Positions 5,416 through 63,928 of a DNA stretch of 64,000 nt are shown here, one piece after another. Made by a program: the position numbers and the translations under genes. The notes under the pieces were generated by a model. That model did not search any database. It saw only the letters and a list, made by a program, of their open reading frames with translations, and was not told where the DNA came from. Source of the stretch: Hexactinellida sp. DTS-2022 (Eukaryota > Porifera > Hexactinellida); the NCBI GenBank assembly GCA_028753945.1, contig JAPNXP010000016.1, forward strand, positions 2,264,001 through 2,328,000. The letters are read 5' to 3'. The number at the start of each line of letters is the position of its first letter. The first letter of the stretch is position 1.

Positions 5416-21105
<15,690 letters not shown>

Positions 21106-27411: not shown

Positions 27412-27524
27412 TACTGTGTGTAGTGACTGTAGTGGATATATAGTAGACAGCTTGAGATTAATTCATACAGTATTACTCGATAGTAGCCTAGGCGATAGAA
27501 TTTTAGCCATTATTATTCCATAAC

Positions 27525-28126
27525 ATAACAGACATGTCCATAACAGACATGTCTATAACAGACATGTCTATAACAGACATGTCCATAACAGACATGTCTA
27601 TAACAGACATGTCCATAACAGACATGTCTATAACAGACATGTCCATAACAGACATGTCTATAACAGACATGTCTATAACAGACATGTCTATAACAGACAT
27701 GTCCATAACAGACATGTCTATAACAGACATGTCCATAACAGACATGTCTATAACAGACATGTCCATAACAGACATGTCTATAACAGACATGTCTATAACA
27801 GACATGTCCATAACAGACATGTCTATAACAGACATGTCCATAACAGACATGTCTATAACAGACATGTCCATAACAGACATGTCTATAACAGACATGTCTA
27901 TAACAGACATGTCCATAACAGACATGTCTATAACAGACATGTCCATAACAGACATGTCCATAACAGACATGTCTATAACAGACATGTCCATAACAGACAT
28001 GTCTATAACAGACATGTCCATAACAGACATGTCTATAACAGACATGTCCATAACAGACATGTCTATAACAGACATGTCTATAACAGACATGTCCATAACA
28101 GACATGTCTATAACAGACATGTCCAT
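27525..28126. repeat. 15-bp minisatellite, about 40 copies, open on both strands
   Basis: Unit ataacagacatgtcy, where y is c or t. About 600 bp with almost no other variation. The plus frame reads (MSITD)n and the minus frame (MSVI/MD)n. The c/t variants largely alternate, suggesting a 30-bp or longer higher-order unit. The plus frame stops at 28166, just before the next gene's ATG at 28168. Confidence 0.95.
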
Positions 28127-28167
28127 AGATTACTTATCAAACTCTAGCAACGTAACTAGCCGCTAGA

Positions 28168-34620: not shown

Positions 34621-34828
34621 TACTGTCACGTTCTTGTGTTATGAACATTCAAGGGACCAAATATTGTGTTCATAATACGTAGAGACTAAGAGAGATTTCA
34701 TAAGCGAACCAACTTAATACGAACCCTATGTAAGTTGTTAATTTGGGACCATAGGGCTTGTTCATAATAGAAATATGTTCATATTAAGCAGACGAAAGAT
34801 TGTTCACAATAAGCATACCTGACTACAC
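34621..34828. mobile_element. Family H MITE directly upstream of the RdRP gene
   Basis: 'gtgttatgaacattcaaggg', 'gcgaaccaacttaatacgaa' and the closing 'aataagcatacctgactaca' match the elements at 10705 and 13062. It ends only 19 bases before the RdRP start codon. The rest of 34285-34620 is AT-rich with no gene seen. Confidence 0.75.
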
Positions 34829-34847: not shown

Positions 34848-37800
34848 ATGGCTAGGATAATCTTGTGTGGCGCTAGTTCTGTCGGCAAGACTACTCTCTC
34901 CAACGATTGGTGCAGCAGACACCGGGACTACACTCAAATCCAGGAGGTAGCCAGGGATGTTATGCGGGAGATAGGGATAACAAGGGAAGACATGAGAGAG
35001 TCAATACAGACAGATAGGAAGGTATTCTTCCAGCTGCAAGAGTGTATATTTAGAGAACAGAACAAGAGAGAGACCGAGTTAGCGAAAAGTCGGTTTATTT
35101 CAGATCGGGGCCCAGACCCCTTAGTGTACACATTCCAACAGGACGAACAGGTTGCCTACGAAATGTACGAACAGGAATCAGTTAAGGCTTGCTTCTCTCT
35201 CTACCGCAGGAGTCTAGTTATCCTCCTCTGTCCGTTGGACAGTTGTACGGATGATGGAGTCAGGCTAGTGCAGTCTCGTAGCGAGCAGGAGAGTTTCACT
35301 TTAGCTCTGAGACACGTGTTGCTACAGTGCAACGTGCCTTATATGGTCATAGAAGAGAAAGACAGATGGCTACGTCTGGATATTCTTAATAAGGCTGTAC
35401 AGGGTCATTTCATTATGGGAGTAGAGCATTTCTGTAATTCTCTAAATCTATCTTTCTACCTGGACAGAGAACTCGATAAAAATGAGTTTTTCGATCCCCC
35501 CAATCTGCCGATGCCTAAACCGGTTAAAAAGGCAATGGTGCGAACCTTCGAAATAAGCGATAACGAGATACTCCTCACGCGTAAGAACATGGACGAATAC
35601 CAACAGACGAACAGAATGGTAGACAGGTACGGAGAGGACGAATTCGTTCTGATACAGTTCCACAGGAAGCTGTCGGATCAGCTGATCACTAGGGCACTTA
35701 ACACAGGCGTGTGGGTTAATGGGGAGGAGTACCAGTTCTTCGGTTGCAGCTCTAGCGGTCTTAAAGAGAGGAAGTGCTATTTGCTGAGGGGGGGTGTTGG
35801 TAGAGTTGTGAGCGTGTTAAGGGAATGCGGGGACTTCGAGAGAATAAATAAGGTATCGACCAGACATAAGAGAATAGGATTGTTGTTCTCAGCTGCTGTG
35901 AAAACAACGGTTATACCTGGGACGGTAGAGGAGATTCCGGACTTAGAGGAGAATGGATATAATTACACTGACGGGTGTGGGAATATCGGGTTGAGTTTAG
36001 CAAAGAAATTAGCAGAAGAGTCATATGGGTGTGTAATATCTCCGGAAGATGGGATTCCATCCGTGTTTCAGATTAGATTCCAAGGTAGCAAAGGCGTTGT
36101 TATAAAAGACCCAACTTTAGAAGAAAATACAATTCAATTGAGGGACTCTATGCGGAAATTTCTACCCGGAACAAATCCTTTTGAAGAGATTTGGGTTTGT
36201 AAGAGCTCACGACCTAATTCATACGGTAGTTTAAACAAACAGTACTTAATGCTGTTATCTGGACTAGGGATAAGTGATGAAATATTCCTCGAAAAGCAAC
36301 AAGATTATTTCAAAGCTTTAGAGAATATGTTAGTTAAGCCTGAGTTCGCAATTAAGCTTCTTAACTGGCAGAACTGTCCAGATCTCTCCGCTTCTGTTGC
36401 TGCTTGTAAATCCAGCGAAGAATTCAAAGAGAATACAGCTGTACAAAACAAACTCAGATTCATAAGATACAAAATGGTAGAAAAGCTAGAAAAATTGAGT
36501 ATCCCGATTATTAAATCTCGAACAGTTTTCGGGGTTTGTGATCCGCTTGCGCTTATGGAATACGGCGAGTGTTTTCTCAGATATTCCTTTAACGGCGCTC
36601 CTCACACGCTAGAAGCTGGCACCTTAGTTGTCGTTGCTAAAAACCCTTGCTACTTCCTTGGAGACATCAGAGTACTGACTACAGTGGACCATCCCGAGTT
36701 AAACCATTTGGTAGACTGTATTGTGTATCCTGTTAAGGGGAAGAGACCGCATTCAACTGAAATAGCAGGCTCTGATTTGGATGGGGACGAGTATTTCGTG
36801 TGCTGGGACGAAAAGCTTATTCCTGACCACATAGAAGATCCTTACAGCTTTCCGTCTACAGAGGCTCATGCTTGTGGTGACGTCACTCGGGAAATGATGC
36901 TAGATTATTTCTCGAGTTTTGTTAATTCCGTTGGTAAGATAGCTACCTATTTCCAGCACTGGGCCGACACGATAGGGCCTGGTTGTAAGAAGTGTAATGA
37001 CTTGGGAGCTTGGTTCTCTCGCAGTGTGGATGCCGCGAAAACAGGTGACGTAGTCCATATCCCTTCGTACTTAGTCCCTCCCAGATCTGTTGACACCTCT
37101 CCTAGCCAGGATATGGCAGATAAGGTGTGGGTAACGATGCTTAAACTCGCAAAGGAAAAAAGAGAGGAGTTAAACGAAGAGCTTACGGATATTGCATTGA
37201 GTGATGGGGAATCTATATTCTGGATTTCCGAGGAATTTATTAGAGATTTGTTAGAAAACACGGATAGGGGAATGTCTGAGTATAAGGCATTCTGTTTGCT
37301 GTACAAATGGTGTGATGTACAGACATTAACCGAGACTGAGAGGAGAGACAAACTGATTGAACTTTCAGACTATATTAACTTCGGGATGCTTACAATGAAG
37401 GAGAGATTAGAAGCAATACAGTTAGGCGTACCAACCGCTAGGGTAATAAATGCTCTGAACAAGTCTAAACTGCTCGATAAGAACATGCTACGTCACTTCT
37501 CTCTCGACCTTCCTTCCTGCGGTTGGAAGTTCTATTTTCGCGAAAGAAGCGCGGATTTTAACTGGTCTAACCTGTCCCGCGCTATCAGGGGGTACACAGA
37601 ATCTCTGTTGGTTCTCCAGCTGCGAGATGGACCCATTGAGTATAGACTGGCGTTCCATTTCAGCGGAGATTTCGAAGAGGGAGAGACCCTTGTGCCCGCG
37701 GGGTCTCTAACTTGCTATTTATTCTCGCCTCAGTTCGGCTATAGACTTAGGTACGTAAATGACTGTGAGTATAATCTGAATCTAACTCGGGACGTTATAC

Positions 37801-40800
37801 AAGTATACAAGGGGGATGTAAATGAAACCTTCTTTTGGCTGAAAAGCCAAATTAGAGAGAAAGAAACTCCTGTTTTGAAGTATGACAGAGTTAGTATAGA
37901 TCTGAACAGGTTCTCTCGGAATAGAAGAGACAATCGTCCGAGGATTAGGAAAATGAATTTCAGCACGATAGAAGTGTTCGTTAGGAACGCCAGGCTGGAT
38001 GACATAGCTTACTTGGATATTCACTGTAGCGAACAGACAGATGAGATTAGTCCTCACGTGGAGGATTCCACCGTAGCTCTAGAAGAGATACCCAGCGAAG
38101 ATGAAGCGGAAATAGAACTTTCTAGAACTGTCCCAGATTCCCCTTTGCTAGCCCTGAAGACATTTGCTAAGCTAGGAGATAGCCAGAGATTCCATGGGGC
38201 CTTAGAGCTCGTAGCGGAGGCAAATGAGGAGACACAAGGGTGCAAACTGATTGAAGTATTCCTGTCTCTCCTGGAGACAATGGTTGTTAAGTACTCACAC
38301 AAAACATCCTCGGAGCTGTTGAAAAGCGCGTGTGAGCCGCAGAGCAAGCTATCAGCTGATTGGCCCCCGCTAACCGCAGAGGAACAGCCAGTAGTCACAC
38401 CTGTGTTCTCTGAGACAGCTGACTCTGTCAGAGAGAGAGACGCGAGTCTGGCTAACAAACTAGCGTTTGTAGAGCGAATACTCACCTCGCCTCTGATGGA
38501 GATCTCTAATGCAAAAGCTATGCTACTCGTCTACTGTAATCTCAGCAGACTACATTTATACCAGCTAATCAAAGAGCATATTGCTAAGTCAATAGACCAG
38601 ATAAAGATATCAACTATTGCGGAATATTTCGAGTGTGTATTCAACTGGGAATGGTGGTCCTTCCTTCCTCTGTCCGTATCCTGTCAGCTGTCCAACAGGC
38701 TATATCTCCTAGCTCTGCAATTAGAATCTGTAAAGAGCTCTGATACAGTAGATACAGTAGATACAGTAGATACTACAGTGCTAGCTAGCTTAGCTGATCT
38801 AGCTATCTCTAATGATGAGCCCCCTCCTATCGACCAGTCTCAACTTAACCACTACAAGTGCTACTATGCTCACCTTATGCACAAACACCTGTTGATAGAG
38901 GCTCCGAGTAATACGGACACGGACAAGATTGTGAGTCTACTCAGAGTAAAACCCTCTCAGAAAGAGACACCTGTTAATGAGCACACCAGTAGTGACGAGG
39001 AATCAGATGTACCTACACAGGTTAAGAAGAAGAAGAATAAAACCTGGAAAGCTTGTTTCTCTCGAACAGAATCTGTTAAGTCGAGTGAGTTCTCTCTCGG
39101 CGCTTATGTTAAGATACGATTTATGCCAACAGCTGACTCCTGCCACTCCCAGGAGCCCATAGCCCTCGGCTGCATCTCTTTCTCATCGAACAGTCCCGTT
39201 AGTATTGTCGTGGACATCCCGGAGCCGGTGCCCAGCTGTATAAAGAGATCAGCTGTTCTTGAGAAGGGCTACTGGTCCCTCTCGCTTGTGGGAAACGTAA
39301 CTAGTCTCAAGAGGTCCCGCAAAGCGCTGGAGACGCTAGGCGCACCAGGAATAGCCTCCGTACTCGTAGCTCCGGAGGGATTCCCACCTCAGATAGAGAA
39401 ACAGAAATGCGAGATTGATTTCTCAGCCAAATCCCCCGAGCCTGTTGGCGAGACGGAATTAATACCGAATCCTTACGAACAACATAGTGAGTGTAGGGCG
39501 TGTGATAGCAGAGCTAGCTTCAATCAGAGCCAGGAAAATGCGATACACGCTGCTCTTAAACAGAGATTGACTCTGATACACGGACCACCGGGTACTGGCA
39601 AGACATTCGTCGCAGCAGAAATTGTGCACCAAATGTGTCACATTATGAGACAGGCAAAAGAGACAGGGGATAAACTCAAGATATTAGTCGCGGCCGAAAC
39701 AAATAACGCAGTTGACAACTTAACACGTAAGCTGCTGGATCTGGATATGCTCGTGCTTAGAGTCGGAAAGAAGAATGCCATTTCTAAAGACCTGCATGTA
39801 CACTCGTTAGAACATCAGGTAGAGATGAAGCGGGTAGAGCAGCTTGAGAGGAAGAAAGGACTTTTCCAATCTGCCAAGCTTAAAAAGGAAATACTTAACT
39901 CTGCTGAAATTATAGCAGCAACTTGTACAGGCGCTGGGGATAATGATCTGAGGACTTTCAAATTCCCTTTTATACTAATCGACGAGGCCACTCAAGCTAT
40001 AGAACCAGTTTCGCTGATATCCATAGTCAAATCCTGTCAGAAACTGGTCCTAATAGGCGACCCGGAGCAACTTGCCCCTACAATAACAGAGGAAAACTTT
40101 CCAACAGAGGAAGGAGTGCCTCCTCTTAAAGACGCCCTTTGCACCACTCTGTTCCACAGACTGCACACTAAGGTAGAGCCGATATTCCTAAACGAGCAAC
40201 ACCGCATGCACCCTGCTATAGCCGACTTTCCTTCTAGAATATTCTACGCCGGGAAACTAAGAACAGCTGTTAAGGCTGAGGATAGAATACCACCGGAAGT
40301 AGAATTCATAAATAAAGATAATCCTATAACTTTTATAAATGTTGATCATAAAGAATTCCGAGTTGGAACTTCTAGAAATAACCCCGGGGAGGCTGACATA
40401 GTTGTCGAGGTAGTGAAACAGCTGATCGCTACTAGTGAGTACAAGGTGTCAGATATCGGTATAATCACACCGTACGCGGCACAAGCTAAGTGTATAAAAT
40501 ACAGCTTAGGAAATATCAAGGTAGATGTTCATTCCATTGATAGTTTCCAAGGTAGGGAAAAGGAAATAATCGTATTCAGTACAGTCAGAAATAGTGAGGA
40601 AGGCGAATTCGCCTTTTTAAAGGACAAATGTAGAATAAACGTTTTGCTAACCCGAGCCAAGCGAGCTCTGATAGGTGTTGGCAACCAAGATACTCTTAGG
40701 AATTCTGATATCTGGACTGAATGGGTATTCACTTGTCCTAACTTGCTTAGTGAAACTGAATTTAACGATAAAATCCGTTCTAAAGAAGTGAGGAGTGAGA

Positions 40801-41183
40801 GTAGACAGGGCAGAGAGAATGGACACAGAGATAGGGAGCAATCGTACAGACACTCTGATAGGGGGCAAACTTATAACCTTAATTATGCACAGAAGAAGAA
40901 ATCACAAAGAGATAGGAAGTATCGTAGTACGGACTCTACGAATACCAACCATAATAACGAGCCTATCGAGACTAGAAATGAGGGAGTAAACAACAATAAC
41001 GAGCCTAATGAGAAAGGAAATGAGGTTGTAAACAACAATAACGAGCCTATCGAGAAGGGAAATGAGGTTGTAAACAACAATAACGAGCCTAATGAGAAAG
41101 GAAATGAGGTTGTAAACAACAATAACGAGCCTAATGAGAAAGGAAATGAGGGTGATAACAGTGATTGGAATTGGAGTCAATAA
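34848..41183 (+). CDS. NTPase - RNA-dependent RNA polymerase - SF1 helicase fusion, intronless, ~2111 aa
   Basis: The frame is one uninterrupted exon. Residues 1-195 form a P-loop NTPase/kinase domain of NadR/AAA_28 type: Walker A GASSVGKTT (8-16), then FISDRGPDPLVY. Residues about 250-800 form a cellular (QDE-1/RDR/EGO-1-type) RdRP: PDLEENGYNYTDGCGNIG, FQIRFQGSKGVV, LRDSMRKF, AKNPCYFLGDIRVL and the catalytic GSDLDGDEYFV, with Asp 643/645/647. After a long helical linker, residues about 1555-1965 form a UPF1/ZNFX1-type SF1 helicase: GPPGTGKT (1579-1586), DEATQ (1712), GDPEQLAP, EQHRMHP, TPYAAQ, DSFQGREKEI and LLTRAK. The tail is charged and ends in five copies of a 14-residue NNNNEPNEKGNEVV unit (about 40948-41157). 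I start at the ATG at 34848, where 'tatag' just upstream could also be a splice acceptor for an untranslated exon. Every core motif is intact. Role inferred: amplification of small-RNA triggers. Confidence 0.93.
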   Translation: MARIILCGASSVGKTTLSNDWCSRHRDYTQIQEVARDVMREIGITREDMRESIQTDRKVFFQLQECIFREQNKRETELAKSRFISDRGPDPLVYTFQQDEQVAYEMYEQESVKACFSLYRRSLVILLCPLDSCTDDGVRLVQSRSEQESFTLALRHVLLQCNVPYMVIEEKDRWLRLDILNKAVQGHFIMGVEHFCNSLNLSFYLDRELDKNEFFDPPNLPMPKPVKKAMVRTFEISDNEILLTRKNMDEYQQTNRMVDRYGEDEFVLIQFHRKLSDQLITRALNTGVWVNGEEYQFFGCSSSGLKERKCYLLRGGVGRVVSVLRECGDFERINKVSTRHKRIGLLFSAAVKTTVIPGTVEEIPDLEENGYNYTDGCGNIGLSLAKKLAEESYGCVISPEDGIPSVFQIRFQGSKGVVIKDPTLEENTIQLRDSMRKFLPGTNPFEEIWVCKSSRPNSYGSLNKQYLMLLSGLGISDEIFLEKQQDYFKALENMLVKPEFAIKLLNWQNCPDLSASVAACKSSEEFKENTAVQNKLRFIRYKMVEKLEKLSIPIIKSRTVFGVCDPLALMEYGECFLRYSFNGAPHTLEAGTLVVVAKNPCYFLGDIRVLTTVDHPELNHLVDCIVYPVKGKRPHSTEIAGSDLDGDEYFVCWDEKLIPDHIEDPYSFPSTEAHACGDVTREMMLDYFSSFVNSVGKIATYFQHWADTIGPGCKKCNDLGAWFSRSVDAAKTGDVVHIPSYLVPPRSVDTSPSQDMADKVWVTMLKLAKEKREELNEELTDIALSDGESIFWISEEFIRDLLENTDRGMSEYKAFCLLYKWCDVQTLTETERRDKLIELSDYINFGMLTMKERLEAIQLGVPTARVINALNKSKLLDKNMLRHFSLDLPSCGWKFYFRERSADFNWSNLSRAIRGYTESLLVLQLRDGPIEYRLAFHFSGDFEEGETLVPAGSLTCYLFSPQFGYRLRYVNDCEYNLNLTRDVIQVYKGDVNETFFWLKSQIREKETPVLKYDRVSIDLNRFSRNRRDNRPRIRKMNFSTIEVFVRNARLDDIAYLDIHCSEQTDEISPHVEDSTVALEEIPSEDEAEIELSRTVPDSPLLALKTFAKLGDSQRFHGALELVAEANEETQGCKLIEVFLSLLETMVVKYSHKTSSELLKSACEPQSKLSADWPPLTAEEQPVVTPVFSETADSVRERDASLANKLAFVERILTSPLMEISNAKAMLLVYCNLSRLHLYQLIKEHIAKSIDQIKISTIAEYFECVFNWEWWSFLPLSVSCQLSNRLYLLALQLESVKSSDTVDTVDTVDTTVLASLADLAISNDEPPPIDQSQLNHYKCYYAHLMHKHLLIEAPSNTDTDKIVSLLRVKPSQKETPVNEHTSSDEESDVPTQVKKKKNKTWKACFSRTESVKSSEFSLGAYVKIRFMPTADSCHSQEPIALGCISFSSNSPVSIVVDIPEPVPSCIKRSAVLEKGYWSLSLVGNVTSLKRSRKALETLGAPGIASVLVAPEGFPPQIEKQKCEIDFSAKSPEPVGETELIPNPYEQHSECRACDSRASFNQSQENAIHAALKQRLTLIHGPPGTGKTFVAAEIVHQMCHIMRQAKETGDKLKILVAAETNNAVDNLTRKLLDLDMLVLRVGKKNAISKDLHVHSLEHQVEMKRVEQLERKKGLFQSAKLKKEILNSAEIIAATCTGAGDNDLRTFKFPFILIDEATQAIEPVSLISIVKSCQKLVLIGDPEQLAPTITEENFPTEEGVPPLKDALCTTLFHRLHTKVEPIFLNEQHRMHPAIADFPSRIFYAGKLRTAVKAEDRIPPEVEFINKDNPITFINVDHKEFRVGTSRNNPGEADIVVEVVKQLIATSEYKVSDIGIITPYAAQAKCIKYSLGNIKVDVHSIDSFQGREKEIIVFSTVRNSEEGEFAFLKDKCRINVLLTRAKRALIGVGNQDTLRNSDIWTEWVFTCPNLLSETEFNDKIRSKEVRSESRQGRENGHRDREQSYRHSDRGQTYNLNYAQKKKSQRDRKYRSTDSTNTNHNNEPIETRNEGVNNNNEPNEKGNEVVNNNNEPIEKGNEVVNNNNEPNEKGNEVVNNNNEPNEKGNEGDNSDWNWSQ
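38743..38775 (+). repeat. Short in-frame GATACAGTA repeat inside the RdRP fusion gene
   Basis: Three to four copies of a 9-base unit encode DTVDTVDTVDT in the linker between polymerase and helicase. Confidence 0.8.
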
Positions 41184-53005: not shown

Positions 53006-54277
53006 ATGGCTGAGGCTTCCTATTCAAAAGCTAGCACAGCCAAAGCAACGTTAGCTAATTCTCTAGATAAATACCTGAAGAGTGCTACAGAGAAGAGAAC
53101 TGAAATTAATTCTACATTCGATGCTCTTATCCTAATAGCGAATATACGAAGACGAACGTTGTTACTTGAAATTGATAATAAGGTAGCGTTAGTTCAAGAG
53201 GAAGTGAAGAAGAGACAAATTGTTTTGAGCCAACTTGAAGAAACAAAATTGGAAATTGACAATAATATATCAGTCAATCAAACTAGACACGCTATGACAA
53301 CAGAGTTGTCCAAACAAATTAATAAGGTCAATCTAAACCTTCCTAATTTCAAGCTAAAATGGAGTAATGGATCCACTCGAATTATCAATAACTTTGATTT
53401 AATTTGCCAACTCTTGATATACACGGAATCTCCATTTGAGTTAGGGAACAACAACTCACCTATTTGGATATCAGACTTAAATTGTGGGAATGCAACCAAT
53501 GAAATTACTGAAGCTAAATCACTAGCTATTGACCCAGTTACTCAGAAAATTTTTGTAGGGGATGCGAATGGAAAGAGAATACTCATTTTCAGCAAAGTTG
53601 GAGATTATCAGAACACTCTTGATATCAAGAAAGGTCCCTCTTCTATTGGTAGAATGGTTATACACTGTGAATTTATTTATTGCTATATAAACTCTACTTT
53701 ATTCTGTAGAAAGATATTCCAATTGCATAAAAGCACTGGAGTACAAATAGCAGAATTAGAAACTGGAAGTTTCCTAGGTGGTTTAACTATTTGTAATAAC
53801 ATAGTGTACACATGTGATAAAATGTTACTATATATTATGCCCATTTCAACAGATCTGGTTTCGCTTGGTGCCTTGGAAATGAATTCTCCTTATATGAAGA
53901 AGGGGAGATTATGGTTTTCTGAGGTACAAGACATGGTATCAGCGGATGGGCACTTAGTAATGCTATTGTCATATGCAGAGCTACCTATACAAGCATTTGA
54001 CCTGTATGGCGGTCTCTTATGGGCAATGGATCTTGAAAACTACTCCGTTTCAGGCGAACAATTCCTATGCGTCGATACACACTGGAATATTATTATTTCT
54101 TCTAACCAAGACAAGTTCCTAAGCGTGTACAACAGGGATGGTAAGAAGATTGGAAAGGTAGGACAGGTAGGACAAGAGAGAGGAGATGTGTACTCTCCCA
54201 GGGGAATAGCATTTGATGTAGATGGCAACTTAATAGTGTGTGATTGTAAAAAGAAGTTTATGTTACAAGCTTACTAA
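53006..54277 (+). CDS. Array gene 1 (type A), coiled-coil/beta-propeller protein, 423 aa
   Basis: Intronless. Residues 5-105 are a coiled coil like the BBC region of TRIM proteins (ALVQEEVKKRQIVLSQLEET). A block common to the whole array follows at about 112-152 (KLKWSNGSTRIINNFDLICQ). Residues about 160-423 form NHL-like propeller strands: AKSLAIDPVTQKIFVGDANG, FLCVDTHWNIIISSNQ and SPRGIAFDVDGNLIVCDCKK. There is no signal peptide, membrane span, RING or B-box, so it is probably cytoplasmic and non-enzymatic. Function is unknown; the propeller may bind RNA or protein as in TRIM-NHL proteins. Copy-specific traits: LILIANIRR in the coiled coil and FMLQAY at the end, where all others have FLLQAY. 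Confidence 0.85.
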   Translation: MAEASYSKASTAKATLANSLDKYLKSATEKRTEINSTFDALILIANIRRRTLLLEIDNKVALVQEEVKKRQIVLSQLEETKLEIDNNISVNQTRHAMTTELSKQINKVNLNLPNFKLKWSNGSTRIINNFDLICQLLIYTESPFELGNNNSPIWISDLNCGNATNEITEAKSLAIDPVTQKIFVGDANGKRILIFSKVGDYQNTLDIKKGPSSIGRMVIHCEFIYCYINSTLFCRKIFQLHKSTGVQIAELETGSFLGGLTICNNIVYTCDKMLLYIMPISTDLVSLGALEMNSPYMKKGRLWFSEVQDMVSADGHLVMLLSYAELPIQAFDLYGGLLWAMDLENYSVSGEQFLCVDTHWNIIISSNQDKFLSVYNRDGKKIGKVGQVGQERGDVYSPRGIAFDVDGNLIVCDCKKKFMLQAY

Positions 54278-54591
54278 TAGAACTAATTTATTCCAACTTT
54301 ATTGGATTGCCTTTTATTGAGCGTTTTTTTTTTTCAATAGAATTGTATAAAGTTTTTTCTTATTACGTATCAACAAAACCCCCCTAAACTGGTGTATTTA
54401 CATTTAATATAATAACAATCTGAAATATGCCTACCGTTATCCAGTAGAATATTTATGTATTGCATTCATTATTTGATAAATACTCAATATTCGTGAATTT
54501 GTCGATGGCCACTAGTTGGATATTGAGATAATGCTAGTTTCGATTCCCGTTATCTGACTGATTTAGCTCCGCTTAATTGTAATCTCAGATT

Positions 54592-55860
54592 ATGGCTGAG
54601 GCTTCCGATTCAAAAGCTAGCAAAGCCAAAGCAACATTAGCTAATTCTCTAGTTAAATACCTGATTAGTGCTGAAAAGAAGAGAACTGAAATTAATTCGA
54701 CATTCGATGCTCTTATCGAGATAGCGAATACTCGAAGACGAACGTTGTTACTTGAAATCGATAATAAGGTAGCGTTAGTTCAAGAGGAAGTGAAGAAGAG
54801 ACAAATTGATTTGAGCGAACTTGAAGAAACAAAATTGTATTTTGACAATAATCTATCAGGCAATCAAGCTAGAGACATTATGACAAGAAAGTTATGGAAA
54901 GAGATTGATAAAGTCAACCTAAACCTTCCTAATTTCAAGCTAAAATGGAGTAATGGATCCACTCGGATTATCAATAACTTTGATTTAATTTGCCAACTCT
55001 TGATATACACAGAATCTCCATTTGAGTTAGGGAACAACAACTCACCTATTTGGATATCAGACTTAAAGTGTGGAAAGGGAGTTAATGAAATTACCGAAGC
55101 TAAATCACTAGCTATTGACCCTGTTACTCATCATATTTATGTAGGAGATGCGAATGGAAAGAAAATACTCATCTTCAGCAAACTTGGAGATTATCTGAAA
55201 ACTCTTGATATCAAGAAAGGTCCCTCTTCTATTGGTAGAATGGTTATACATTGTGAATTTATTTACTGCTACATAAATTCTGTATTCTGTTCAAAGATAT
55301 TCCAATTGCATAAAAGCACTGGAGTACAAATAGCAGAATTAGAAACTGGAAGTATTCTAAGTGGTTTAGCTATTTGTAATAACATAGTGTACACATGTTG
55401 TAAAGTGTCACTACATATTTTGCCCATTTCAACAGATCTGGTAAGGCTAGGTAGGAAGGAAATGAAGTCTCCTTATATGAAGAAGGGGAGATTATGGCAC
55501 TCCGAGGTACAAGACATGGTATCAGCGAATGGGCACTTAGTAATGCTATTGTCATATGCAGAGCTACCTATACAAGCATTTGACCTGTATGGCGGTCTCT
55601 TATGGGGAATGAATCTTGAAAACTACTCCATTCTAGGCGAACAATTCATATGCGTCGATGCACACTGGAATATTATTGTTACGTCTTACCAAGACAGTCT
55701 GTTAACCGTGTACAACAAGGATGGTAAGAGGATTGGAAAGATAGGACAGGTAGGACAAGAGAGAGGAGATGTGTACTCTCCCAGGGGAATAGCATTTGAT
55801 GTAGATGGCAACTTAATAGTGTGTGATTGTAAAAAGAAGTTTCTGTTACAAGCTTACTAA
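54592..55860 (+). CDS. Array gene 2 (type B), 422 aa
   Basis: Type B is told apart by SLVKYL(I/K)SAEKKRTEINS, KLYFDNNLSGNQARDIMTRK and LWKEIDK in the coiled coil. Here the propeller segment reads INSVFCSKIFQLHK, CCKVSLHILPIS and TSYQDSLLTVYNKDGKR. Intact from ATG to stop. Nearest relative is gene 6, which differs at a small number of positions spread over the propeller. Confidence 0.85.
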   Translation: MAEASDSKASKAKATLANSLVKYLISAEKKRTEINSTFDALIEIANTRRRTLLLEIDNKVALVQEEVKKRQIDLSELEETKLYFDNNLSGNQARDIMTRKLWKEIDKVNLNLPNFKLKWSNGSTRIINNFDLICQLLIYTESPFELGNNNSPIWISDLKCGKGVNEITEAKSLAIDPVTHHIYVGDANGKKILIFSKLGDYLKTLDIKKGPSSIGRMVIHCEFIYCYINSVFCSKIFQLHKSTGVQIAELETGSILSGLAICNNIVYTCCKVSLHILPISTDLVRLGRKEMKSPYMKKGRLWHSEVQDMVSANGHLVMLLSYAELPIQAFDLYGGLLWGMNLENYSILGEQFICVDAHWNIIVTSYQDSLLTVYNKDGKRIGKIGQVGQERGDVYSPRGIAFDVDGNLIVCDCKKKFLLQAY

Positions 55861-56211
55861 TAGAACTAATTTAGATAATTCCAACTTTATTGGATTGCGG
55901 ATTGCCTTTTATTGAGTGTTTTTTTTTCAATAGAATTGTATAAAGTTAATTTTCTTATTATGAACAAAACCCCCTAAACTGGTGTATTTAGATTGAATAT
56001 AATAACGATCTGAAATATGCCAACCGATAATTATCCAGTAGAATATTTATGTATTGCATTCAATATTTGAATAATTCTTGAAAATGAATTATTTATGAAT
56101 ATTCAATATTCGTTAATTTGTCGATGGCCACTAGTTAGATATTGAGATAAATGCTAGTTTCGATCCCCGTTATCTGACTGATTTAGCTCCGCTTATTTAT
56201 AATCTCAGATT

Positions 56212-57482
56212 ATGGCAGAGCCCTCCTCCGATTCAAAAGCTAGCACAGCCAAAGCAACATTAGCTAATTCTCTAGATAAATACCTGAAGAGTGCTACAGA
56301 GAAGAGAACTGAAATTAATTCTACATTCGATGCTCTTATCGAGAAAGCGAATATACGAAGACGAACGTTGCTCTTTGAAATTGATAATAAGGTAGCGTTA
56401 GTTCAAGAAGAAGTGAAGAAGAGACAAATTGATTTGAGCGAACTTGAAAAAACAAAATTGGATATCGACAAGAATATATCAGTCAATCAAACTAGAGACG
56501 CTATAACAACAGAATTATACAACCAGATTAATAATGTCAATCTAAACCTTCCTAATTTCAAGCTAAAATGGAGTAATGGATCCACTCGAATTATCAATAA
56601 CTTTGATTTAATTTGCCAACTCCTGATATACACGGAATCTCCATTTGAGTTAGGGAACAACAACTCACCTATTTGGATATCAGACTTAAAGTGTGGAAAG
56701 GGAGTCAATGAAATTACCGAAGCTAAATCACTAGCTATTGACCCTGTTACTCATCATATTTATGTAGGAGATGCGAATGGAAAGAGAATACTCATTTTCA
56801 GCAAAGTTGGAGATTATCTGAAGACTCTTGATATCAAGAAAGGTCCCTCTTCTATTGGTAGAATGGTTATACACTGTGAATTTATTTATTGCTATATAAA
56901 CTCTTATTTAGCTACTACGATATTCCAACTGCATAAAAGTACTGGAGTAGCAATAGCAGAATTAGAACCTGGAGGTGTGATAAGAGGTTTAGCTATTTGT
57001 GATAACATAGTGTACACATGTGCTAGAATCTCGCTATATATTTCGCCCGTTTCAACAATCTGGTAAGGCTTGGTGGCCTGGAAATGAAGTCTCCTTTTAT
57101 CACGAGGGGACTGATATTCCACTCTGAGGTACAAGACATGGTATCAATTAATGGGTACTTAGTAATGCTATTGTCATATGCAGAGCTACCTATACAAGCA
57201 TTTGACCTGTATGGCGGTCTCTTATGGGCAATGGATCTTGAAAACTACTCCGTTTCAGGCGAACAATTCCTATGCATCGATACGAACTGGAATATTATTG
57301 TTACGTCATACCAAGACAGTCTGTTAAGCGTGTACAACAGGGATGGTAAGAGGATTGGAAAGGTAGGACAGGTAGGTCAAGAGAGAGGAGATGTGTACTC
57401 TCCCAGGGGAATAGCGTTTGATGTAGATGGCAACTTAATAGTGTGTGATTGTAAAAAGAAGTTTCTGTTACAAGCTTACTAA
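56212..57482 (+). pseudogene. Array gene 3 (type A), broken by a one-base deletion
   Basis: Starts MAEPSSDSK like gene 7. The frame is open to about 57056, where the other copies read caacagatctgg and this one reads caacaatctgg. Loss of one G ends the first frame at 57066; the remainder continues in another frame from about 57084 to 57482, ending normally. The rest is as conserved as its neighbours, so the break is recent. It carries the most divergent propeller segment of the array (INSYLATTIFQ, EPGGVIRGL, CARISLYISPVS). A sequencing error is possible. Confidence 0.8.
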
Positions 57483-57796
57483 TAGAACTAATTTATTCCA
57501 ACTTTATTGGATTGCCTTTTATTGAGCGTTTTTTATTTTCAATAGAATTGTATAAAGTTTTTTCTTATTACGTATCAACAAAACCCCCCTAAACTGGTGT
57601 ATTTACATTTAATATAATAACAATCTGAAATATGCCTACCGTTATCCAGTAGAATATTTATGTATTGCATTCATTATTTGATAAATACTCAATATTCGTG
57701 AATTTGTCGATGGCCACTAGTTGGATATTGAGATAATGCTAGTTTCGATTCCCGTTATCTGACTGATTTAGCTCCGCTTAATTGTAATCTCAGATT

Positions 57797-59068
57797 ATGG
57801 CTGAGGCTTCCGATTCAAAAGCTAGCAAAGCCAAAGCAACATTAGCTAATTCTCTAGTTAAATACCTAAAGAGTGCTGAAAAGAAGAGAACTGAAATTAA
57901 TTCTACATTCGATGCTCTTATCGAGATAGCGAATACTCGAAGACGAACGTTGTTACTTGAAATTGATAATAAGGTAGCGTTAGTTCAAGAGGAAGTGAAG
58001 AAGAGACAAATTGATTTGAGCGAACTTGAAGAAACAAAATTGTATTTTGACAATAATCTATCAGGCAATCAAGCTAGAGACATTATGACAAGAAAGTTAT
58101 GGAAAGAGATTGATAAGATCAACCTAAACCTTCCTAATTTCAAGCTAAAATGGAGTAATGGATCCACTCGAATTATCAATAACTTTGATTTAATTTGCCA
58201 ACTCTTGATATACACAGAATCTCCATTTGAGTTAGGGAACAACAACTCGCCTATTTGGATATCAGACTTAAAGTGTGGAAAGGGAGCCAATGAAATTACT
58301 GAAGCTAAATCAGTAGCTATTGACCCTGTTACTCATCATATTTATGTAGGAGATGCGAATGGAAAGAAAATACTCATTTTCAGCAATCTTGGAGATTATC
58401 TGAAAACTCTTGATATCAAGAAAGGTCCCTCTTCTATTGGTAGAATGGTTATACACTGTGAATTTATTTACTGCTATATAAACTCTACTTTATTCTGTAC
58501 AAAGATATTCCAACTGGATAAAAGCACTGGAGTACAAATAGCAGAATTAGAACCTGGAGGTTTGTTAAGTGGTTTAACTATTTGTAATAACATAGTGTAC
58601 ACATGTGATAAAGTGTTACTACATATTTTGCCCTTTTCAACAGATCTGGTAAGGCTTGGTGGCCTGGAAATGAAGTCTCCTTATATGAAGAAGGGGAGAT
58701 TATGGCACTCTGAGGTACAAGACATGGTATCAACGAATGGGTACTTAGTAATGCTATTGTCATATGCAGAGCTACCTATACAAGCATTTGACATTTCGGG
58801 GTGTCTCTTATGGGGAATGAATCTTGAAAACTACTCCGTTCTAGGCGAACAATTCCTATGCGTCGATGCACACTGGAATATTATTATTACATCTAACCAA
58901 GACAGTCTGTTAAGCGTGTACAATAAGGATGGTAAGAGGATTGGAAAGGTAGGACAGGTAGGACAAGAGAGAGGAGATATGTACTCTCCCAGGGGAATAG
59001 CATTTGATGTAGGTGGCAACTTAATAGTGTGTCATTGTAAAAAGAAGTTTCTGTTACAAGCTTACTAA
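57797..59068 (+). CDS. Array gene 4 (type B), 423 aa
   Basis: Type B coiled coil. The propeller carries segments seen in other copies: STLFCTKIFQLDKS and CDKVLLHILPFS resemble gene 1, EPGGLLSGL matches gene 7, and AFDISGCLLWGMN is close to gene 7. Near the end it has GGNLIVCHCKK where the others have DGNLIVCDCKK. Intact. Confidence 0.85.
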   Translation: MAEASDSKASKAKATLANSLVKYLKSAEKKRTEINSTFDALIEIANTRRRTLLLEIDNKVALVQEEVKKRQIDLSELEETKLYFDNNLSGNQARDIMTRKLWKEIDKINLNLPNFKLKWSNGSTRIINNFDLICQLLIYTESPFELGNNNSPIWISDLKCGKGANEITEAKSVAIDPVTHHIYVGDANGKKILIFSNLGDYLKTLDIKKGPSSIGRMVIHCEFIYCYINSTLFCTKIFQLDKSTGVQIAELEPGGLLSGLTICNNIVYTCDKVLLHILPFSTDLVRLGGLEMKSPYMKKGRLWHSEVQDMVSTNGYLVMLLSYAELPIQAFDISGCLLWGMNLENYSVLGEQFLCVDAHWNIIITSNQDSLLSVYNKDGKRIGKVGQVGQERGDMYSPRGIAFDVGGNLIVCHCKKKFLLQAY

Positions 59069-59428
59069 TAGAACTAATTTAGATAATTCCAACTTTATTG
59101 GATTGCGGATTGCCTTTTATTGAGTGTTTTTTTTTTCAATAGAATTGTATAAAGTTAATTTTCTTATTATCAACAAAACCCCCCTAAACTGGTGTATTTA
59201 GATTGAATATAATAACGATCTGAAATATGCCAACCGATAATTATCCAGTAGAATATTTATGTATTGCATTCAATATTTGAATAATTCTTGAAAATGAATT
59301 ATTTATGAATATTCAATATTCAATATTCGTTAATTTGTCGATGGCCATTAGTTAGATATTGAGATAAATGCTAGTTTCGATCCCCGTTATCTGACTGATT
59401 TAGCTCCGCTTATTTATAATCTCAGATT

Positions 59429-60697
59429 ATGGCTGAGGCTTCCTATTCAAAAGCTAGCACAGCCAAAGCAACGTTAGCTAATTCTCTAGATAAGTACCTG
59501 AAGAGTGCTACAGAGAAGAGAACTGAAATTAATTCTACATTCGATGCTCTTATCGAGAAAGCGAATATACGAAGACGAACGTTGCTCTTTGAAATTGATA
59601 ATGAGGTAGCGTTAGTTCAAGAGGAAGTGAAAAGGAGACAAATTGTTTTGAGCCAACTTAAAAAAACAGAACTGGACATTGACAAGAATCTATCAGGCAA
59701 TCAAGCTAGACACGCTATTACAACAGAATTATACAACCAGATTAATAAAGTCAACTTAAACCTTCCTTATTTAAAGCTAAAATGGAGTAATGGATCCACT
59801 CGGATTATCAATAACTTTGATTTAATTTGCCAACTCTTGATATACACGGAATCTCCATTTGAGTTAGGGAACAATAACTCACCTATTTGGATATCAGACT
59901 TAAAGTGTGGAAAGGGAGTCAATGAAATTACTGAAGCTAAATCAGTAGCTATTGACCCTGTCACTCATCATATTTATGTAGGAGATGCGAATGGAAAGAA
60001 AATACTCATCTTCAACAAAGTTGGAGATTATCGGAACACTCTTGATATCAAGAAAGGTCCCTCTTCTATTGGTAGAATGGTTATACACTGTGAATTTATT
60101 TACTGCTATACAAACTCTGTATTCTGTACAAAGATATTCCAACTGCATAAAAGCACTGGACTAGCAATAGCAGAATTAGAAACTGGAAGTATTCTAAGAG
60201 GTTTAGCTATTTGTAATAACACAGTGTACACATGTTGTAAAGTCTCACTACATATTTTGCCCATTTCAACAGATCTGGTAAGGCTAGGTAGGAAGGAAAT
60301 GAAGTCTCCTTATATGAAGAAGGGGAGATTATGGCACTCCGAGGTACAAGACATGGTATCAGCGAATGGGCACTTAGTAATGCTATTGTCATATGCAGAG
60401 CTACCTATACAAGCATTTGACATGTATGGCGGTCTCTTATGGGGAATGGATCTTGAAAACTTCTCCGTTCTAGGCGAACAATTCCTATGCGTCGATACGA
60501 ACTGGAATATTATTGTTACGTCTAACCAAGACAGTCTGTTAAGAGTATACAACAAGGATGGTAAGAGGATTGGAAAGATAGGACAGGTAGGACAAGAGAG
60601 AGGAGATATGTACTCTCCCAGGGGAATAGCGTTTGATGTAGATGGCAACTTAATAGTGTGTGATTGTAAAAAGAAGTTTCTGTTACAAGCTTACTAA
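59429..60697 (+). CDS. Array gene 5 (type A), 422 aa
   Basis: Starts MAEASYSKAST like gene 1, but its coiled coil (LIEKANIRRRTLLFEIDNEV) resembles genes 3 and 7, and its propeller (CCKVSLHILPIS, LVRLGRKEMKSPY) matches genes 2 and 6. It is therefore a mosaic. Intact, ends FLLQAY. Confidence 0.85.
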   Translation: MAEASYSKASTAKATLANSLDKYLKSATEKRTEINSTFDALIEKANIRRRTLLFEIDNEVALVQEEVKRRQIVLSQLKKTELDIDKNLSGNQARHAITTELYNQINKVNLNLPYLKLKWSNGSTRIINNFDLICQLLIYTESPFELGNNNSPIWISDLKCGKGVNEITEAKSVAIDPVTHHIYVGDANGKKILIFNKVGDYRNTLDIKKGPSSIGRMVIHCEFIYCYTNSVFCTKIFQLHKSTGLAIAELETGSILRGLAICNNTVYTCCKVSLHILPISTDLVRLGRKEMKSPYMKKGRLWHSEVQDMVSANGHLVMLLSYAELPIQAFDMYGGLLWGMDLENFSVLGEQFLCVDTNWNIIVTSNQDSLLRVYNKDGKRIGKIGQVGQERGDMYSPRGIAFDVDGNLIVCDCKKKFLLQAY

Positions 60698-61011
60698 TAG
60701 AACTAATTTATTCCAACTTTATTGGATTGCCTTTTATTGAGCGTTTTTTATTTTCAATAGAATTGTATAAAGTTTTTTCTTATTACGTATCAACAAAACC
60801 CCCCTAAACTGGTGTATTTACATTTAATATAATAACAATCTGAAATATGCCTACCGTTATCCAGTAGAATATTTATGTATTGCATTCATTATTTAATAAA
60901 TACTCAATATTCGTGAATTTGTCGATGGCCACTAGTTGGATATTGAGATAATGCTAGTTTCGATTCCCGTTATCTGACTGATTTAGCTCCGCTTAATTGT
61001 AATCTCAGATT

Positions 61012-62280
61012 ATGGCTGAGGCTTCCGATTCAAAAGCTAGCAAAGCCAAAGCAACATTAGCTAATTCTCTAGTTAAATACCTAAAGAGTGCTGAAAAGAA
61101 GAGAACTGAAATTAATTCTACATTCGATGCTCTTATCGAGATAGCGAATACTCGAAGACGAACGTTGTTACTTGAAATCGATAATAAGGTAGCGTTAGTT
61201 CAAGAAGAAGTGAAGAAGAGACAAATTGATTTGAGCGAACTTGAAGAAACAAAATTGTATTTTGACAATAATCTATCAGGCAATCAAGCTAGAGACATTA
61301 TGACAAGAAAGTTATGGAAAGAGATTGATAAGATCAACCTAAACCTTCCTAATTTCAAGCTAAAATGGAGTAATGGATCCACTCGGATTATCAATAACTT
61401 TGATTTAATTTGCCAACTCTTGATATACACAGAATCTCCATTTGAGTTAGGGAACAATAACTCACCTATTTGGATATCAGACTTAAAGTGTGGAAAGGGA
61501 GTTAATGAAATTACCGAAGCTAAATCACTAGCTATTGACCCTGTTACTCATCATATTTATGTAGGAGATGCGAATGGAAAGAGAATACTCATTTTCAGCA
61601 AACTTGGAGATTATCTGAAAACTCTTGATATCAAGAAAGGTCCCTCTTCTATTGGTAGAATGGTTATACATTGTGAATTTATTTACTGCTACATAAATTC
61701 TGTATTCTGTTCAAAGATATTCCAATTGCATAAAAGCACTGGAGTACAAATAGCAGAATTAGAAACTGGAAGTATTCTAAGTGGTTTAGCTATTTGTAAT
61801 AACATAGTGTACACATGTTGTAAAGTCTCACTACATATTTTGCCCATTTCAACAGATCTGGTAAGGCTAGGTAGGAAGGAAATAAAGTCTCCTTATATGA
61901 AGAAGGGGAGATTATGGCACTCCGAGGTACAAGACATGGTATCAACGAATGGGCACTTAATAATGCTATTGTCATATGCAGAGCGACCTATACAAGCATT
62001 TGACCTGTATGGCGGTCTCTTATGGGGAATGAATCTTGAAAACTTCTCCGTTCTAGGCGAACAATTCCTATGTGTCGATGCACACTGGAATATTATTATT
62101 TGTTCTAACCAAGACAATTTCCTAAGCGTGTACAACAGGGATGGTAAGAGGATTGGAAAGGTAGGACAGGTAGGACAAGAGAGAGGAGATGTGTACTCTC
62201 CCAGGGGAATAGCATTGGATGTAGATGGCAACTTAATAGTGTGTGATTGTAAAAAGAAGTTTCTGTTACAAGCTTACTAA
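61012..62280 (+). CDS. Array gene 6 (type B), 422 aa
   Basis: Almost the same as gene 2 over most of its length. Differences include LSYAERPIQAF, and CSNQDNFLSVYNRDGKR near the end, a segment closer to gene 1 (SSNQDKFLSVYNRDGKK). Intact, with the type B spacer downstream. Confidence 0.85.
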   Translation: MAEASDSKASKAKATLANSLVKYLKSAEKKRTEINSTFDALIEIANTRRRTLLLEIDNKVALVQEEVKKRQIDLSELEETKLYFDNNLSGNQARDIMTRKLWKEIDKINLNLPNFKLKWSNGSTRIINNFDLICQLLIYTESPFELGNNNSPIWISDLKCGKGVNEITEAKSLAIDPVTHHIYVGDANGKRILIFSKLGDYLKTLDIKKGPSSIGRMVIHCEFIYCYINSVFCSKIFQLHKSTGVQIAELETGSILSGLAICNNIVYTCCKVSLHILPISTDLVRLGRKEIKSPYMKKGRLWHSEVQDMVSTNGHLIMLLSYAERPIQAFDLYGGLLWGMNLENFSVLGEQFLCVDAHWNIIICSNQDNFLSVYNRDGKRIGKVGQVGQERGDVYSPRGIALDVDGNLIVCDCKKKFLLQAY

Positions 62281-62653
62281 TAGAACTAATTTAGATAATT
62301 CCAACTTTATTGGATTGCGGATTGCCTTTTATTGAGTGTTTTTTTTTTCAATAGAATTGTATAAAGTTAATTTTCTTATTATGAACAAAACCCCCTAAAC
62401 TGGTGTATTTACATTGAATATAATAACGATCTGAAATATGCCAACCGATAATTATCCAGTAGAATATTTATATATTGCATAATTTGCATTCATTATTTGA
62501 ATAATTCTCTAAAATGAATAATTTTAATTAATTTATGAATTGTATCCAATATTCGTTAATTTGTCGAGGCCATTAGTTGGATATTGAGATAAATGCTAGT
62601 TTCGATTCCCGTTATCTGACTGATTTAGCTCCGCTTAATTGTAATCTCAGATT

Positions 62654-63928
62654 ATGGCAGAGCCCTCGTCCGATTCAAAAGCTAGCAAAGCCAAAGCAAC
62701 ATTAACTAATTCTCTAGATAAGTACCTGAAGAGTGCTACAGAGAAGAGAACTGAAATTAATTCTACAATCGATTCTCTTATCGAGATAGCGAATATACGA
62801 AGACGAACGTTGCTCTTTGAAATCGACAATGAGGTAGCGTTAGTTCAAGAGGAAGTGAAAAGAAGACAAATTGTTTTGAGCCAACTTGAAAAAACAGAAA
62901 TGGACATTGACAAGAATTTATCAGTCAATCAAGCTAGACACGCTATGACAACAGAATTATGCAACCAGATTAATAAAGTCAATCTAAACCTTCCTAACTT
63001 TTTCAAGCTAAAATGGAGTAATGGATCCACTCGAATTATCAATAACTTTGATTTAATTTGCCAACTCTTGATATACACGGAATCTCCATTTGAGTTAGGG
63101 AACAACAACTCACCTATTTGGATATCAGACTTAAATTGTGGGAATGGAGTCAATGAAATTACTGAAGCTAAATCAGTAGCTATTGACCCTATTACTCAGA
63201 ATATTTATGTAGGAGATGCGAATGGAAAGAAAATACTCATTTTCAACAAAGTTGGAGATTATCGGAAAACTCTTGATATCAAGAAAGGTCCCTCTTCTAT
63301 TGGTAGAATGGTTATACACTGTGAATTTATTTACTGCTATACAAACTCTGTATTCTGTACAAAGATATTCCAACTGGATAAAAGCACTGGAGTACAAATA
63401 GCAGAATTAGAACCTGGAGGTTTGTTAAGTGGTTTAGCTATTTGTAATAACATAGTGTACACATGTTGTAAAATTCCACTACGTATTTTGCCCATTTCAA
63501 CAGATTTGGAAAGCCTTGGTGTCCTGGAAATGAAGTCTCCTTATCTCAAGAGGGGACTGTTATTCCACTCTGAGGTACAAGACATGGTATCAGCGAATGG
63601 GCACTTAGTAATGCTATTGTCACGTGCAAAGAGACCTATACAAGCATTTGACATTTCAGGGTGTTTCTTATGGGGAATTAATCTTGAAAACTACTCGGTT
63701 CTAGTCGAACAATTCCTATGCGTCGATACACACTGGAATATTATTGTTACGTCTTACCTAGTCAAGTACCTAAGAGTGTACAACAAGGATGGTAAGAGGA
63801 TTGGAAAGGTAGGACAGGTAGGACAAGAGAGAGGAGATATGTACTCTCCCAGGGGAATAGCATTTGATGTAGATGGCAACTTAATAGTGTGTGATTGTAA
63901 AAAGAAGTTTCTGTTACAAGCTTACTAA
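62654..63928 (+). CDS. Array gene 7 (type A), 424 aa
   Basis: Starts MAEPSSDSK as in gene 3. It has one extra Phe in the shared block (NFFKLKWSNG). The propeller carries CCKIPLRILPIS, SPYLKRGLLFHSEVQ, AFDISGCFLWGIN and TSYLVKYLRVYNKD, making it the most distinct intact copy. The 72 bases after its stop begin another 314-bp-type spacer with small changes. Confidence 0.85.
   Translation: MAEPSSDSKASKAKATLTNSLDKYLKSATEKRTEINSTIDSLIEIANIRRRTLLFEIDNEVALVQEEVKRRQIVLSQLEKTEMDIDKNLSVNQARHAMTTELCNQINKVNLNLPNFFKLKWSNGSTRIINNFDLICQLLIYTESPFELGNNNSPIWISDLNCGNGVNEITEAKSVAIDPITQNIYVGDANGKKILIFNKVGDYRKTLDIKKGPSSIGRMVIHCEFIYCYTNSVFCTKIFQLDKSTGVQIAELEPGGLLSGLAICNNIVYTCCKIPLRILPISTDLESLGVLEMKSPYLKRGLLFHSEVQDMVSANGHLVMLLSRAKRPIQAFDISGCFLWGINLENYSVLVEQFLCVDTHWNIIVTSYLVKYLRVYNKDGKRIGKVGQVGQERGDMYSPRGIAFDVDGNLIVCDCKKKFLLQAY

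Follow-up and report, generated by a model that had tools for sequence, protein, structure and literature searches.

What kind of enzyme is encoded when a P-loop kinase-like domain, an RNA-dependent RNA polymerase (RdRP) and a UPF1-like superfamily 1 (SF1) helicase share one open frame? The question is raised by a locus of the glass sponge Hexactinellida sp. DTS-2022, which lies in a stretch of 64,000 nucleotides of contig JAPNXP010000016.1 (positions 2,264,001 to 2,328,000; hereafter the window). A single unbroken frame runs over 34848–41183 (+) from an ATG start through 2111 codons to a TAA end, which bears out the length given in a preliminary description made from the DNA sequence alone. 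Considering sequence and structure models together, we favor, with some reserve, the view that the protein belongs to an old animal family and works as an RNA-copying machine complete in itself, whose task would probably be the surveillance of foreign or aberrant RNA. Literature is cited by PMC number.

Domain architecture of the protein

Pfam search placed all three parts of the protein, in PF13521, PF05183 and the UPF1-like helicase families, and the signature motifs lie exactly where they had been reported (Table 1). The RdRP family PF05183 matches residues 250–742 (E 3.8e-108, profile positions 12–546 of 582). In a 56-row alignment of mostly sponge-like relatives (A1), the three DxDGD aspartates are kept in 56, 55 and 56 rows. 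The profile match over most of its length and these aspartates assign the domain to the cellular (QDE-1/RDR-type) RdRPs at the sequence level.

The helicase part is matched by AAA_11 (E 7e-44), AAA_12 (E 4e-53), AAA_19 and AAA_30 at approximately residues 1558–1947, and its lysine K1585 is kept in 55 of the 56 rows of A1. SF1 motifs, together with the 1B barrel and two RecA domains of the structure model, place it among the UPF1-like SF1 helicases, and the top helicase matches are UPF1/NAM7. The part had been described as UPF1/ZNFX1-type; the UPF1 half of that label stands, and the ZNFX1 half does not, ZNFX1 being more distant than UPF1 by both sequence and fold scores. The CH domain of UPF1 (PF09416), present in UPF1 rows including P0077 and P0081, is absent from the best 25 of 34 Pfam matches of the window protein (none better than E 0.038) and from the Pfam lists shown for its fused relatives. 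This CH-domain result speaks against an identity with UPF1 proper, the nonsense-mediated mRNA decay (NMD) factor. One chain holds both an intact RdRP and an intact helicase of the UPF1 type (1B, RecA1 and RecA2), with a mainly helical linker between the two. Identity among relatives is higher in the domains than in the linker and tail.

The N-terminal domain matches AAA_28 (PF13521) at residues 3–170 with E 1.9e-16 and a score of 61.2 bits (curated cut-off 27). NadR is both its top profile match and its top VIA structural match, and plain Foldseek on the N-terminal model ranks shikimate kinases first and NadR third. The PF13521 match and the predicted P-loop kinase fold place it among the NadR-type/AAA_28 P-loop kinases, and the earlier proposal of a nucleoside/nicotinamide mononucleotide (NMN)-kinase-like N-terminus is supported. 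In A1, every one of the 50 rows that have a residue at position 14 retains K14; D86 is kept in 44 of 53, R87 in 48 of 53 and D136 in 47 of 54. The conservation of K14, R87 and D136 suggests catalysis in these mostly sponge-like members.

Distribution of the fusion among animals

Relatives were collected with the whole protein (best 120 of 169 matches listed) and with the RdRP part (best 120 of 317 listed; candidates at least 0.55 times the query length); the domain tallies below come from Pfam calls of the latter 120. The top whole-length match is collinear with the window protein and shares 72% identity over 97% of its length, on another contig. All three domains are present in 70 of the 120 listed RdRP-part matches, and 45 have RdRP and helicase without PF13521; the remainder include PF13521 with RdRP (2), RdRP alone (2) and helicase without RdRP (1). 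Named three-domain carriers are the sponges Oopsacas minuta (P0009), Dysidea avara (P0047) and Ephydatia muelleri (P0183), the clams Mya arenaria (P0198) and Mercenaria mercenaria (P0199), and the anemone Actinostola (P0201); a rescan verified the three domains in P0199, P0201, P0209 and P0211. With at least 70 relatives sharing the three domains and a top match collinear with the window protein, the earlier claim of a natural three-part fusion is upheld. P0209 and P0211 carry transcriptome open reading frame (ORF) names, an indication that a single mRNA encodes all parts in the species concerned. A sponge-only family was ruled out by the carriers among clams and anemone. A viral or prokaryotic origin was likewise rejected: a scan of viral contigs gave 105 pattern matches and no relative, and in genome contigs the matches listed, at least 22 loci, all fell within residues 1498–1969, the barrel-helicase part.

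In a 26-row set with other animals, P0149 is the one row without an intact DxDGD and also the one without an intact helicase motif I (25 of 26 rows intact for each), and P0210 has no motif VI in the alignment. The NTPase motifs of the same set vary widely: the DRG form is absent in clams and anemone, and Walker A is lost in Mytilus. Polymerase and motor are thus the core that stays constant, and the kinase-like domain is the part that varies. Catalysis by the N-terminal domain is apparently not required family-wide, as several proteins of clams, mussel and anemone have decayed motifs there. With a sponge NTPase profile, E values of 5e-17 to 4e-39 were obtained for the N-termini of Mya, Mercenaria, Actinostola, P0209 and P0211, and no match for any of 14 fungal RdRP-helicase fusions, so the domain belongs to the animal form.

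The same profile was applied to 11 of the 45 rows with no PF13521 call. It matches most of the domain in P0008, P0149, P0163 and P0200, the last third in P0210, and weakly P0205 and P0206; no match was found in P0152, P0175, P0193 or P0212. Another four of the 45 (P0178, P0158, P0028 and P0184) lie on contigs of the same lengths as those bearing separate P-loop ORFs (P0122, P0140, P0136 and P0146, respectively), which suggests an intron. The missing calls are partly a matter of prediction. The Mytilus protein P0212 has RdRP and helicase, and its N-terminus is matched neither by Pfam nor by the sponge profile.

Two relatives differ in their own ways. P0149, a second Oopsacas minuta copy, reads GSSLGED in place of the RdRP motif; its helicase motif I is altered too, its linker is long and repetitive, and by sequence it looks like a non-catalytic copy. 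The RdRP-only protein P0197 of the crinoid Anneissia japonica contains one full and one partial RdRP stretch, which looks like an internal duplication or may be a gene-model error.

Phylogeny and age

The sponge and non-sponge labels of most tree rows were assigned by grouping with named rows. The 66-row helicase tree unites the 33 fused non-fungal rows in a single clade (100/99), separate from the UPF1, SEN1 and HELZ2 rows; within that clade the 19 rows taken as sponge group together (100/99). In the 47-row RdRP tree, 19 sponge-labeled rows group (95/97), as do 12 of the 13 non-sponge-labeled rows (100/99). The two trees agree on one sponge and one non-sponge group, and in both the window protein groups with Oopsacas minuta proteins. 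Adding RdRP-only proteins placed P0202 within the fused rows, next to Actinostola (98/93), and left the long-branched P0197 outside (93/94). One clade of the fused animal rows and 14 fungal rows gave an approximately unbiased (AU) p of 0.39, which neither rejects nor demonstrates a single fusion event common to animals and fungi, and a grouping of the fused animal rows with UPF1 rows was not rejected (AU p 0.377).

On the simplest reading of these trees, the three-part architecture would have been inherited from an animal ancestor, with losses, and the fusion looks like an old form of animal RNA-copying enzyme. P0209, a three-domain protein from a EukProt transcript, is long-branched and diverges close to the base of the fused clade; were it of protist origin, the architecture would predate animals.

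Features of the gene and its surroundings

The nearest upstream in-frame stop lies at 34785, the five other frames contain 51–208 stops over the same span, and the chance of 2111 open codons, computed by base composition, is approximately 10^-57. From the open frame we read the locus as a gene without introns, which would be ordinary in such a genome because many single-exon genes are described for Aphrocallistes (PMC10282587). Its C-terminus ends in imperfect Asn-rich repeats (NNNNEPNEKGNEVV).

Table 1 Features of the fusion gene (window coordinates)
Feature	Residues	Position	Strand	Basis
Complete three-domain gene	2111 codons + stop	34848..41183	+	Open frame, motifs
P-loop kinase-like domain, PF13521, NadR/dTMP-kinase-like predicted fold	1–188	34848..35411	+	Pfam, structure model, fold matches, NadR profile match
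Walker A GASSVGKT (GASSVGKTT 8–16)	8–15	34869..34892	+	Sequence motif
DRGPDP motif, candidate catalytic acid and arginine	86–91	35103..35120	+	Alignment; role inferred from kinase fold
DDGVR lid motif, common to NadR	135–139	35250..35264	+	Profile comparison, alignment
Cellular RdRP catalytic domain, PF05183	250–742	35595..37073	+	Pfam; plant RDR2 are the closest solved relatives
RdRP catalytic DLDGD	643–647	36774..36788	+	Sequence motif
RdRP C-terminal extension	743–1060	37074..38027	+	Homology with the corresponding part of fungal RdRP-helicase fusions (hhalign probability 99.3)
Helical middle region between RdRP and helicase	~1099–1351	38142..38900	+	Structure model, some low-confidence stretches
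UPF1 1B-type beta-barrel	~1361–1480	38928..39287	+	Structure model; UPF1 (2xzo) alignment covers model residues 255–912
UPF1-like SF1 helicase core, RecA1 + RecA2	1558–1947	39519..40688	+	Pfam, sequence and structure matches
Helicase motif I GPPGTGKT	1579–1586	39582..39605	+	Sequence motif
Helicase motif II DEAT	1712–1715	39981..39992	+	Sequence motif
Helicase motif VI region NVLLTRAK (LLTRAK 1933–1938)	1931–1938	40638..40661	+	Sequence motif
Basic, Asn-rich low-complexity tail, weakly conserved	1966–2111 + stop	40743..41183	+	Sequence, identity comparison

Ten window ORFs other than the fusion were scanned with Pfam. Eight have family matches (ASF1, a proteasome subunit, NCU-G1, one RING, one MBT and three NHL proteins) and resemble ordinary animal genes; two match nothing, and no sign of virus or contaminant was seen among the ten. 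Seven near-alike ORFs lie in tandem on one strand at 53006–63928 (+), six of 422–424 amino acids and one shortened at 56212–57066; a Pfam scan of the first gave NHL repeats. The ORFs at 15725–17359 (-) and 18734–20365 (+) encode almost identical proteins of 544 and 543 amino acids in divergent orientation, an inverted gene duplication; a Pfam scan of the second also gave NHL repeats. A short-period tandem repeat at 27503–28166, with an open frame on each strand (MDMSVI and MSITD repeats), is probably a satellite rather than a gene.

Proposed role and alternative explanations

We propose a pathway in which the UPF1-type motor would bind single-stranded target RNA and strip off its proteins. UPF1 moves 5′ to 3′, and a motor of this polarity would arrive at the 3′ end, where the polymerase would start. 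There the fused RdRP would copy the target into double-stranded RNA (dsRNA), to be handed to Dicer or dsRNA sensors. The N-terminal domain would bind a nucleotide and probably regulate the enzyme, or phosphorylate a nucleotide or RNA end in sponges. The biological task would probably be the surveillance of foreign or aberrant RNA.

Several points weigh against such a surveillance enzyme of old descent. P0058 and P0209 are not firmly placed in the RdRP tree. Branching among the non-sponge rows does not match the species: Actinostola nests with molluscs and Mytilus is separated from its fellow bivalves Mya and Mercenaria, so that this group may conceal paralogy or transfer. Not every family member can be a polymerase, because P0149 has no DxDGD, and delivery of the 3′ end to the RdRP is a step that we infer. 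Small RNAs have also gone undetected in the animals reported on: siRNA-like (small interfering RNA-like) RNAs in amphioxus, whose RdRPs do not appear to act in RNA interference (RNAi) (PMC6396948), and secondary siRNAs in Nematostella (PMC12768352), while neither a sponge nor an anemone showed abundant small RNAs derived from viruses (PMC6085071). These comparisons concern the RdRPs of amphioxus, Nematostella, a sponge and an anemone, and a fused state is reported only for the amphioxus protein BL02069.

The small-RNA data also bear on a nematode-type RNAi amplifier, which would copy Argonaute-marked targets in short runs into 5′-triphosphate secondary siRNAs with a helicase acting like ZNFX-1 or Hrr1. 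Helicases do work with RdRPs in RNAi elsewhere (SAD-3 and RnhA, SAD-3 and Hrr1), and the fungal fusion Fgrdrp5 is reported in exonic siRNA (ex-siRNA) biogenesis (PMC11237814). The helicase here is UPF1-like, however, and the secondary siRNAs implied by the preliminary description find no support in RdRP-bearing amphioxus and Nematostella; we regard this role as unlikely. A regulator, in which the P-loop domain senses nucleotides and turns the RdRP on in infection or stress, would fit the near-full-length domain that has lost catalytic-type residues in several non-sponge members, and three of four Nematostella RdRPs rise after a viral mimic (PMC12768352), although their fused state is not established. 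Walker A, DR and DDGxR are largely kept in A1 (P0009 lacks D86), and this regulatory function is less probable again.

The Oopsacas protein is deposited under the name Regulator of nonsense transcripts 1, by which it would be an NMD factor with the RdRP part secondary. The UPF1/NAM7 matches agree with that name; the missing CH domain, the separate clade of fused helicases (loosely placed among UPF1-like rows) and the intact RdRP active site speak against it, and we give it very little credence. Least probable of all, to the point of being negligible, is an assembly chimera or read-through of neighboring genes, for which no supporting point was found and against which stand the 70 three-domain relatives, the collinear protein on another contig and the transcript-named ORFs.

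The surveillance enzyme favored here invites a bolder and doubtful extension, in which the ancestral animal RdRP was a three-part enzyme predating the split of sponges and other animals. In a single molecule it would have recognized and stripped aberrant or foreign RNA in the manner of UPF1 and converted it at once to dsRNA. Its N-terminal kinase would have been active on nucleotides or RNA ends, and many later animals would have lost first the kinase activity and then the gene. The role of RdRPs in non-nematode animals is an open question: the enzymes occur widely and have often been lost, and those of amphioxus show no tie to RNAi (PMC6396948). The conserved set of RdRP, UPF1-type motor and kinase-like domain predicts separable activities and an RNA kind to seek.

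Comparison with known systems

The preliminary description knew of no enzyme with this domain order. As to the three-part form this holds for the literature searched, which excluded subscription papers, figures and supplements; many three-part proteins are deposited, and the RdRP-helicase order is already in print. Term searches of the Oopsacas genome paper (main text; PMC10280926) and the Aphrocallistes paper (PMC10282587) gave no mention of RdRP or RNAi, nor, in the former, of helicase. Fusarium graminearum Fgrdrp5 unites RdRP, DEXDc and AAA PF13087 in one protein; ascospore discharge is affected when it is deleted, and a part in Dicer-dependent ex-siRNA biogenesis is reported for it (PMC11237814). 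Like the window protein, it has the RdRP first and the PF13087 (AAA_12) helicase C-terminal, an order also seen in three rescanned fungal proteins. Unlike the window protein, it has no N-terminal P-loop domain mentioned in the passage available, and none of the 14 other fungal fusions examined has one. Between those fusions and the animal form the C-terminal extension is homologous (hhalign probability 99.3), whereas the middle linker shows no detectable homology (0.2). Amphioxus BL02069 is likewise an animal RdRP joined to an AAA_12 domain, as given in a figure legend; no P-loop domain is mentioned there, and the words "helicase" and "fusion" are absent from the main text (PMC6396948).

NadR ribosylnicotinamide kinase, dTMP kinase and dCK are not fused to an RdRP, in contrast to the window domain, whose motifs have decayed in several non-sponge members. 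ZNFX1, fission yeast Hrr1 and Neurospora SAD-3 are helicases as well, and Hrr1 and SAD-3 act in silencing. RdRP and SF1 helicase are separate proteins in fission yeast and Neurospora, and one chain in the fusions of fungi and animals.

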